Assembly: GCA_021796895.1 (NCBI GenBank)
Contig: JAKABN010000008.1
Coordinates: 1-33,598, forward strand
Direction of reading: 5' to 3'
Length of the DNA: 33,598 nucleotides
Source: Thermoplasmata archaeon
GTDB lineage: Archaea; Thermoplasmatota; Thermoplasmata; Sysuiplasmatales; Sysuiplasmataceae
The notes below the pieces were generated by a model. That model had not been told where the DNA came from, ran no database searches, and was given only the letters and a program-made list of their open reading frames with translations. Shown here one piece after another: positions 30,442 to 33,598 of this stretch (the first letter of the stretch is position 1; every line of letters starts with the position of its first letter). A program made the translations under genes and the position numbers.

Positions 30442-30888
30442 ATGAACAATAAATCGGAAGAGTTTCGGAATGATGAACGGCCAGTGAAGTTTTTCACCGT
30501 CGACGAGGCCAACGATCTGATACCGATGCTGGAATCAATGCTGAAGGAATGCGACAGGATTCTCCTTGAGATCAGGACGGTGGCAGAACTTACCGAGGAC
30601 ATTGAGTGGTACTGGGGTGAATCAATCCGCCAGGATGAGAATCCTGACCGCGGCGAATATCTCAAGCTGGAGAAGGAGAAGGGCGCCCGGATAGGACGGT
30701 GGAATGAGGCTGTGGAGAAGATAAGTGCACTGGGCGTCGTGTTGAAGAATCCGGATATGGGACTCATTGACTTCTATTCATCAAGGGAGGGCCATGTTAT
30801 TTTGCTCTGCTGGCAAAGGGGAGAACCGGAGGTGCGTTACTGGCATACGCTCGAGGGAGGCTACGCAGGCAGGAGACCACTGGAGTAA
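30442..30888 (+). CDS. DUF2203-like conserved protein
   Basis: FFTVDEANDLIPMLESML..., GVVLKNPDMGLIDFYSSREGHVILLCWQRGEPEVRYWHTLEGGYAGRRPL. Confidence 0.85.
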   Translation: MNNKSEEFRNDERPVKFFTVDEANDLIPMLESMLKECDRILLEIRTVAELTEDIEWYWGESIRQDENPDRGEYLKLEKEKGARIGRWNEAVEKISALGVVLKNPDMGLIDFYSSREGHVILLCWQRGEPEVRYWHTLEGGYAGRRPLE

Positions 30889-30894
30889 ATGGTT

Positions 30895-31124
30895 TCACCA
30901 CCATTTCATGCCGTTTTTCAGAGTGGAAACTTTCTCTGACTGGAGAGGTTTCCTGAAAACGTAATGGTGTTCGTGCCCGATCTTGTAGAAATCGTATCCG
31001 TGTCCCTTCCATCTCTGACGCCCGCTCGGCGTCCTGTGCTGCATCTTTATTATATCCTCCTTGAGGAGGAATCCCGCATTCATGAACGAATTGAGAACAT
31101 GACTGAACACAGGCTGTTTTCATA
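30895..31124 (-). pseudogene. C-terminal remnant of a DNA N4/N6-methyltransferase
   Basis: KQPVFSHVLNSFMNAGFLLKEDIIKMQHRTPSGRQRWKGHGYDFYKIGHEHHYVFRKPLQSEKV...KWW matches the C-terminal block of N4/N6 DNA methylases (FLLKEDIIK.QH...W....YDFY.I.HEH..VFRKP). In-frame TGA just upstream and no catalytic motifs present. Confidence 0.65.
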
Positions 31125-31157
31125 AATAAGCATGAACTGGTAGGGAAAGTGCTGGGG

Positions 31158-31345
31158 CATACCAGACGGTCATCAATCTGATAGGTGCGGCAACAAACAG
31201 GAGCATCCTGAAGGCACATGCAAGGCTTGGCAGAAGAATGTACGAGAATGGAGAACGCATAGACGGCTCAGCGATGAACATCTCAACATCCGCCAGCGCA
31301 GAACGCTTCTGCAATGGAAATACACTGTAACGCCTTCTGCCTGAG
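31158..31345 (+). mobile_element. Decayed C-terminal tail of an ISAzo13-like transposase
   Basis: AYQTVINLIGAATNRSILKAHARLGRRMYENGERIDGS, then a frame change into SDEHLNIRQRRTLLQWKYTVTPSA*. Pattern resembles the transposase tail V-NLI--T-T--GLKV-A-LD---YP-GIK--D------N-----F-GEWNYTI-PS (recalled). Confidence 0.5.
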
Positions 31346-31676
31346 TCACATATTTATTGCAGTTACAAATAATATAAATCAACACTATCAAACCCTTAGT
31401 GTAGAGCAGTTCAGTCACTTCACTGAGCTATTCCTCCGAGAAGACGGCAGGCTCCCTTCAATAGTTCGGAAATCCATGTTGCGCCCATACCTCCGTCTGA
31501 ATGGCACAATGGCACTGCGCTTGAGGTTCGCACAGAAATCGAGTGAAGCTACAGAGTTACCAGCCACTGCGTTCTGAAATACTGAATAATAAAGCAGTCT
31601 TTCAATTTCATCCTTCAACTGCTATTTTCAAATACATGTGGTTAGGATCTTCTTGACCTAGAGCTCGAGCCCAAAA

Positions 31677-32486
31677 TTATTCAGCTCTCTGATATTCTCC
31701 AGATCCGATGAATTTTATGAATCTTCTATCACGCAATATTTGCAATTGCTGTCTTATCTTGTCCCTAATGTGTCTGTTTTGCGGATGCAAAGTTGCAAGC
31801 TCATTTTCATAGCGGTAAACGTCGTTCAGGTTAAATCTTGGTGGCAGTCTGTCGATGAAGTTAATTATGTCTGCTGTCCATCCTCTCTGGATAGTATTTC
31901 CTTTCAACAGCTTTGACACTTTATCCCATCTATTCTGTACTATGTTTTTGTCAATAATGTTACTATCATCTATCATCGTTATGCGCCCAAGTTTGGGTAT
32001 CACGTCCAAGGTTATGATACTGCCTTGCCATCCCGCTCTCCTTGCAGTAACAGGCAGCGGTTTTCTAGGTTTTATGCAGCTTGAAGTTATTGATAGTCTG
32101 TGAACAAGCATTGCATCTTTAACTGCCATCTCTCTCCTTTCATAATGTAACAGAATCAGAGAAGGAAATGCGCCCTGTTTCAAGATGCGCATTGCGGTAT
32201 TGTACTCTCCTCCTTGTATCTTATTTGAGAAATGTCTTTTAGGAAAACTACGGGTGCTTTTCAGTTGGAAATTCTCTCTGGGTACAACAATAATTTTTTC
32301 GTTAGAATGGTCGCAATAAAAGTCATAAACCGGCTTATTGTTGGGATATTGCTCAAGACCACTTCCGCATTTTGGGCAATAAAGATTATCACTTGCCCAT
32401 TTCTCAGTTATTCTGCCACTTATCTGGGAACCGCTTTTGTACTGAGCTGTAATTTGACTATAGTACGCCGATAGATCAAGATTCAT
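31677..32486 (-). CDS. DpnI-family (Dam-replacing/DRP type) methyl-directed restriction endonuclease
   Basis: CPKCG...NNKPVYDFYCDH, FQLKS, RKPLPVTARRAGWQGSIITLDVIPKLGRI, QRGWTADIINFIDRL, VYRYENELATLHPQNRHIRDKIRQQLQILRDRRFIKFIGSGEYQR. Near-colinear with S. pneumoniae DpnI as recalled, including the C-terminal winged helix. Confidence 0.9.
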   Translation of the reverse strand: MNLDLSAYYSQITAQYKSGSQISGRITEKWASDNLYCPKCGSGLEQYPNNKPVYDFYCDHSNEKIIVVPRENFQLKSTRSFPKRHFSNKIQGGEYNTAMRILKQGAFPSLILLHYERREMAVKDAMLVHRLSITSSCIKPRKPLPVTARRAGWQGSIITLDVIPKLGRITMIDDSNIIDKNIVQNRWDKVSKLLKGNTIQRGWTADIINFIDRLPPRFNLNDVYRYENELATLHPQNRHIRDKIRQQLQILRDRRFIKFIGSGEYQRAE

Positions 32487-32507
32487 AAGAATAGAATGGA
32501 TGGAATA

Positions 32508-32517
32508 CCTTATAAGT
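32508..32517 (-). promoter_or_regulatory. Probable TATA box for the DpnI-like gene (leaderless-type spacing)
   Basis: Minus-strand CTTATAAGGT about 22-31 nt upstream of the ATG at 32486. Confidence 0.4.
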
Positions 32518-32914
32518 CAGGGTTAAGAGTAAGTTAGACATAAGTCCCCTATCCGGAAGTCATGTTGAAGATATTGTGCCAAATTCCCTTACACATTACT
32601 GCACTCCATGTCCTGTCCTCATTTTCTGATTCATGTGCCAACCTGTAGTCCTCTTGTCCGCCAACAGCTGTGACGCTGCGTTCTCCCTCCTGCAATGCAT
32701 ATCGAATGCCATGCACTGCGCTGTCATTCCGTTCATTTCTTTCCTTCTGCAAACCCGACTGGGTCTCAGCATTCTCCCGTACGTCCACAAAGGACAGACG
32801 AACCCGTTCTTGGGACGGTCTTACTCCAATGCGCAAACTTGGTGCAAGTCTAGGGGCGGTGCCCCAAGCTCGATTTTACAAGCCTAGGATGAGGTTTGGG
32901 GGTAATGGAGGTTT

Positions 32915-33181
32915 TCACGTGCACTCCCCCGCCGAGCTGTATTTCAGGATTAGATTCCGCGGTATGTACGGACTCCAATTTCCCCTGAAATTACCTCTGT
33001 GTGTGGCCCAGTCTCCCCTGCCCTGGAAGCTCCACACCATCCATTCTTCTGGGGAAAACCCTTCGTGCCAGTATCCGTCGGGTTTCTGTCCCCTGACAAG
33101 TTCAACACATGTGTTTCCCACCTTGACGGAATCGTTCTTCCTCAGGAATTCAGAGTACTCACGTTGTGTAACCTTCCTCAT
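32915..33181 (-). pseudogene. N-terminal remnant of a DNA N4/N6-methyltransferase
   Basis: MRKVTQREYSEFLRKNDSVKVGNTCVELVRGQKPDGYWHEGFSPEEWMVWSFQGRGDWATHRGNFRGNWSPYIPRNLILKYSSAGE ends exactly where the SAM motif (VLDP..GSGTT) should follow, then stops. Confidence 0.7.
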
Positions 33182-33305
33182 CGACTATAGCCGCGTTTCC
33201 TCTCTGTCCTTCATAACTGATTCCGGGTATCTGGATGGTTCCTTTTAACTGAAACGCTATAGTCGTGCAAAAAATTGCCGGAGGGCGCGCAAGCCGTTAA
33301 GGGCG

Positions 33306-33598
33306 TCACATTTTTCTTGCCTTGATGTGCGAGCTGTGGTAAGCGGAATCTCCAGCATCTGAGGAGGATGCACGTTCGATAGACACGTCCACAAATCCGG
33401 CTTTCTCAAGGGCACTTCTGTATGCGGCGTCCGTCAGGCCTCCACTCACACAGGCGGACCATGAATCCATGTTTCGCCTCTCATTTTCAGGTATATCCCT
33501 GTCCAGAGTGACGTCGGCAACAGCAAACGTCCCTCCCTTTTTCAGGACTCTGAACGCCTCATCGAAGACAGCCTGCTTGTCCGGCGAGAGATTGATCA
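33306..33598 (-). CDS. SAM-dependent methyltransferase (ArsM/UbiE-like), C-terminal part; 5' end beyond window
   Basis: Own translation: LINLSPDKQAVFDEAFRVLKKGGTFAVADVTLDRDIPENERRNMDSWSACVSGGLTDAAYRSALEKAGFVDVSIERASSSDAGDSAYHSSHIKARKM*; arsenite-methyltransferase-like FRVLK.GG.FAV.D and C-x-x-G-x-L/T-D blocks. Confidence 0.8.
   Translation of the reverse strand, partial: INLSPDKQAVFDEAFRVLKKGGTFAVADVTLDRDIPENERRNMDSWSACVSGGLTDAAYRSALEKAGFVDVSIERASSSDAGDSAYHSSHIKARKM

Follow-up and report, generated by a model that had tools for sequence, protein, structure and literature searches.

A DpnI-family protein from an archaeal clade with an altered zinc knuckle, encoded where a methyltransferase gene has lost its core

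The restriction endonuclease DpnI requires zinc, which is bound in a Cys4 motif (PMC4081073). In its DNA-bound structure, Asp53 and Glu64 ligate metal (Glu64 at metal 1) and Lys66 positions the water; the two methyl groups are held by Leu129, Arg135 and Trp138, where Trp138 packs against Gly140 (PMC4117772). A DpnI-like gene of a Thermoplasmata archaeon encodes a protein in which one of the four cysteines and Glu64 are replaced. At issue are whether its product still cuts methylated GATC, whether it still binds zinc, and how the gene came to its present place. The gene lies in a 33,598-nucleotide stretch (positions 1 to 33,598 of contig JAKABN010000008.1, assembly GCA_021796895.1), here called the window, which comes from a fragmented metagenome-assembled genome (MAG) of 241 contigs. 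The account that we favour, with a probability of about 0.62, is that of an active Gm6ATC-directed DpnI with a CCCH zinc site, gained horizontally into a methyltransferase gene.

Identity of the reading frame and its departures from DpnI

Positions 31677-32486 hold an intact open reading frame (ORF) of 269 amino acids (P0001), exactly the span given by an earlier sequence-only reading, which had left out that the strand is minus. The product matches the Pfam profile DpnI (PF06044; E = 1.7e-58, 197.7 bits against a curated cut-off of 26.7) followed by DpnI_C (PF17726; E = 2.3e-29, 101.8 bits against 23), in the order expected for the family and with both scores far above the cut-offs. Residues 11-267 match the sequence of DpnI in the PDB (4esj/4kyw, E = 7e-50), and the PADLOC profile mREase_II is matched at 2e-65. 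An AlphaFold (AF2) model, built from 58 sequences of the window and genome contigs, reaches a mean pLDDT of 91.9, and its top PDB matches are DpnI entries, 4esj giving TM 0.79 on the query and 0.86-0.88 on the target. The profile matches rule out a chance ORF, and by profile and fold the protein is a variant inside the known DpnI family, in agreement with the colinearity proposed from the sequence. The C-terminal winged helix (residues 200-266; 31689-31889, minus strand) is likewise as well conserved as had been claimed. Upstream, a TATA-like box (TTATAAG; 32509-32515, minus strand) lies 23-29 nt before the ATG, a distance that would suit leaderless transcription in an archaeon; most relatives, too, have a comparable AT-rich box about as far ahead of their DpnI genes.

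Alignment to the 4esj sequence, the reference for residue numbers, bears out the DpnI positions C34, C37, D53, C56, C59, E64 and K66 as well as three departures that had been pointed out. The first zinc knuckle, C37-P-K-C40 (DpnI C34 and C37; 32367-32378, minus strand), is kept. The catalytic D55 (DpnI D53) is followed by an altered second knuckle, C58-D-H60-S61 (32304-32324, minus strand), in which C59 has become S61 (codon TCT), so that three of the four cysteines of the family's Cys4 site are present. Eight extra residues then separate S61 from Q74; they correspond to the insertion IIVVPREN (32271-32294, minus strand), which lengthens the hairpin between the Asp and the QxK motif. The predicted active site Q74-L-K76 (DpnI E64-L-K66; 32259-32267, minus strand) thus keeps the Asp and Lys of the PD-(D/E)XK motif, with Glu64 replaced by Gln (codon CAA). 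A second insertion, of four residues after QLKS, had been missed. An independent MAG (G178/L058) encodes a DpnI 75% identical to that of the window with the same Ser, Gln and eight-residue insert, and since the features are common to independent MAGs, assembly or sequencing error is ruled out as their source.

An archaeal clade with a CxH knuckle

To place these departures, homologues were gathered from close relatives, 390 genomes of the phylum, 400 genomes of the class and GTDB genomes. All three are common to 14 distinct archaeal sequences (the window, G178, G352, ten from I-plasma's family and one Micrarchaeota MAG), each of which has QxK and lacks C59, with about 8-14 residues inserted. 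In a tree from which the trait columns had been left out, a branch with an SH-aLRT of 100 separates these 14 from the rest; judged from these sequences, the loss of C59 and the insertion define one archaeal clade. Invariant in all 14 are the equivalents of D53, K66, C34, C37, C56, L129, R135, W138 and G140 and of K229 and R231 in the winged helix. In one genus of the I-plasma lineage, 9 of the 11 genomes sampled carry DpnI, and the two that do not are 52% and 89% complete. Several MAGs of the clade presumably come from acidic habitats, judging by their names. Four archaeal genomes (G021, G030, G055 and G430; e.g. L011-L017) each hold more than one incomplete DpnI-like copy, and in-frame stops interrupt some of these, a picture that suggests genes gained and lost repeatedly. 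No full-length relative was found in viral contigs or phages, and a plasmid search returned only two Neisseria records, both chromosome-sized; viral or plasmid carriage is therefore rejected. Three viral contigs (L138-L140) contain stretches similar to the DpnI winged helix alone.

C59 is kept by 99 of 99 homologues outside the clade, and inside it the position is taken by Ser, Tyr, Phe, Pro, Arg or Leu. The residue just before it (DpnI H58, window H60) is His in all 14 members, while both of its neighbours vary; outside the clade, Asn, Ser, Lys and Arg prevail here, and only six homologues, including DpnI, have His. Because the other three cysteines and the adjacent His are invariant while the neighbours of the His vary, the site is read as a CCCH zinc site, the simplest reading being that one ligand has shifted by a single residue, from C-x-x-C to C-x-H. 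This pattern suggests that the DpnI Cys4 zinc site is not fixed and that one archaeal branch moved a ligand to the neighbouring His.

The Gln of the active site is a different matter. Among the 99 homologues outside the clade, the E64 position is Glu in 71 and Gln in 28, and all 28 Gln sequences have an intact Cys4 motif. Only two changes between Glu and Gln are seen on the homologue tree, and Gln is the usual state in the sampled archaeal lineages and in some Acidobacteriota and Verrucomicrobiota. QxK is thus rejected as a novelty; it is, on the evidence of this tree, an ordinary and deep state in the DpnI family, and its standing as a regular active-site state over much of the tree is relevant to annotation.

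The DpnI segment and methyltransferase genes

The DpnI gene has a GC content of 39.6%, against about 51% for the surrounding region, and lies in a low-GC segment of 1795 bp (31114-32908). The segment also holds an IS-like repeat remnant (32529-32692) that is 73-76% identical to copies in the window's genome (G000; contigs C58, C140 and C177) and in related genomes, and the repeat occurs at other sites of the genus. On both sides lie pieces of one permuted N6_N4-type DNA methyltransferase, each recognised by tblastn with the orthologue from the congener G003: an N-terminal remnant (residues ~1-117) at 32909-33258 (minus strand; 61%, 8e-46) and a C-terminal remnant (residues 252-324) at 30895-31113 (minus strand; 81% identity, 1e-37). 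The part with DPMVGSGTT and HPPY is absent from the window. In G003, flanks with 74-81% identity to those of the window are joined by 442 bp, compared with 1835 bp in the window, and these 442 bp are the middle of an intact gene for a 324-residue methyltransferase (L170:758-1732); a further intact relative is found in G001 (L171:1108-2013). The segment thus stands where about 440 bp of the gene would be as in G003, and since only residues ~1-117 and 252-324 remain as its flanks, it replaced the core of the gene. The DpnI segment occupies the place of the catalytic core in a methyltransferase gene that was resident here, a replacement through which a conflict of methyl marks between close archaeal relatives could be studied in nature. 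An Rfam scan of 30800-33598 and a tRNA scan of the window gave no matches.

A related methyltransferase accompanies DpnI elsewhere in the clade. In the I-plasma-lineage genus, an intact permuted enzyme (PADLOC PDLC03351), related to the one broken in the window, follows DpnI in the same orientation in eight of nine genomes (L060-L067), either directly or with one gene between; in the ninth (G591), a contig break falls between the two. In three cases (L060, L062 and L063), the pair sits between tRNA-Asn and tRNA-Met. A methyltransferase is a surprising partner for DpnI, which cleaves methylated DNA; the enzyme must either make a mark other than Gm6ATC or accompany a nuclease that is restrained. 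An active nuclease would require that the downstream I-plasma enzyme does not make Gm6ATC, and this counts against the main reading. The partner is not required, since in G178, whose genome is 99% complete, DpnI is found and a methyltransferase of the adjacent type is not. There, and in the window, where the adjacent gene is broken, DpnI would work without a cognate methyltransferase, although these genomes still contain other methyltransferases. The region just ahead of DpnI in the Micrarchaeota MAG (L059, 332-4193) encodes an N6_N4 methyltransferase and an 833-residue HATPase protein that matches Mrr_cat weakly.

Function and relation to known systems

Taken together, the window protein would be a Type IIM restriction endonuclease of the DpnI family, directed by methylation and acting alone. 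Its intact readout residues suggest that Gm6ATC would be read by both the winged helix and the PD-(D/E)XK domain, and the DNA would be cut with Mg2+ by the D55...Q74-x-K76 site. Structural zinc would be kept through three Cys and the His two residues past the third, a proposal built on conservation. The clade is set apart by the loop that joins the metal Asp to the QxK strand, which is variable and about 8-14 residues long. The host, an acidophilic archaeon, would make no Gm6ATC of its own, and the enzyme may guard it against DNA with that mark from phages, plasmids or neighbours. Its gene sits on a low-GC, IS-bordered segment within a methyltransferase gene, and horizontal acquisition is the probable route. 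The predicted methyl-binding pocket, L144, R150, W153 and G155 (DpnI L129, R135, W138 and G140; 32022-32057, minus strand), is the same in all 14 members, so that the proposed retention of m6A-GATC targeting is very likely, and the window DpnI is most likely an active Gm6ATC-dependent nuclease.

Of the 13 DpnI-bearing genomes searched, one yielded the motif NxxGxFNVPFG of Dam-type D12 enzymes, which we take as a mark of GATC methyltransferases. In that genome (G591), a CxH DpnI and a Dam-type methyltransferase occur together, which counts against the main reading; its Dam-type gene (L142, contig C68) has a small nuclease-like ORF next to it and an integrase-like ORF nearby. In the window's genome, the sole D12 methyltransferase found is without this motif, a point in favour of the main reading; the presence there of PF01555-type methyltransferases, and a completeness of only 78.8%, count against it. 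The congener G002 has a Dam-type D12 enzyme and no DpnI. GATC methylation has been reported for Thermoplasma (PMC10050889), and methylated DNA from related archaea is therefore plausible. The observed/expected ratio of GATC, which for the window's genome rests on 20 contigs excluding the window itself, is 0.75, so that GATC is not depleted relative to G003 (0.74), a congener that lacks DpnI; given these equal counts, GATC avoidance lends no support either way as a sign of activity.

The most serious competitor is a catalytically weak or dead reader, in which both domains bind Gm6ATC, the Gln impairs cutting and the protein acts as a silencer or sensor. The role of DpnI Glu64 as a ligand of metal 1 (PMC4117772) speaks for it, as does the maintenance of the lineage by selection even next to a methyltransferase gene, but D53 and K66 are invariant in the clade, QxK is found across deep lineages of the family and Mrr-type PD-QXK nucleases are recognised (PMC11037411). 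A reader of this kind is unlikely, if worth keeping in mind. The view of the sequence-only reading that QxK does not imply a loss of activity is plausible, and the gene shows no sign of decay. Decay or an artefact of assembly could be suspected in so fragmented a MAG, but the ORF is full-length, independent MAGs have the same features, and dN/dS is low (0.20-0.22 among close pairs and 0.07 between the window and G178, a comparison in which dS approaches saturation); a pseudogene is rejected, and the chance of either is negligible. Of the "modified or zinc-independent nuclease core" proposed earlier, the zinc independence is probably wrong. Loss of zinc across the clade, with the inserted hairpin stabilising the fold instead, would explain why the fourth Cys is missing from all 14 members and always alongside the insertion. 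It would not account for three invariant Cys and an invariant His beside the lost one, and the insertion itself is weakly conserved in sequence and has the lowest confidence in the model (mean pLDDT 69 over residues 61-70), so that this version appears improbable.

Two further readings turn on the neighbouring methyltransferase. A conventional restriction-modification pair, with a DpnI fold of changed specificity partnering the adjacent enzyme, draws on the order and shared orientation of the two genes in one I-plasma-lineage genus, several of them between the same two tRNA genes. It is disfavoured by G178, which has the nuclease alone, by the window, where DpnI is intact and its adjacent methyltransferase broken, and by the intact methyl pocket, and must be considered very unlikely. 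Alternatively, the CxH-clade DpnI and a permuted methyltransferase that makes a different mark may form a two-gene module, the window being an exchange of DpnI and methyltransferase alleles as with pneumococcal DpnI/DpnII; we regard this as rather doubtful.

Several described systems are close to the window protein. It is about 40% identical to R.DpnI of Streptococcus pneumoniae (Type IIM/IIE; 4esj, 4kyw), which it matches in length and in the order of its domains, and with which it has in common the catalytic Asp and Lys, the pocket for the methyl groups, the winged helix and the CPxC knuckle. It differs from R.DpnI in having Ser for C59 after a clade-invariant His, Gln for Glu64, the insertion of about 8 residues and four more after QLKS. 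Archaeal and acidobacterial QxK homologues (L026, L003 and L074) share the Gln and the conserved readout residues, but have all four zinc Cys and are without the insertion. The I-plasma-lineage DpnI (L063, ATMD01000002.1) and its relatives (L058-L067, including the Micrarchaeota L059) share the CxH knuckle, the insertion and FQLK; the I-plasma-lineage genus differs in the intact methyltransferase after DpnI, and in G178 and G352 the DpnI gene stands apart from any such gene. The proposed CCCH knuckle and the replacement of the methyltransferase are the parts of most specialist interest, and a DpnI from an acid-adapted archaeon could serve as a practical reagent. Finally, the alternative DpnI/DpnII cassettes of S. 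pneumoniae resemble the window in that one locus, among related strains or species, holds either a methyltransferase or DpnI, a likeness of locus occupancy only.
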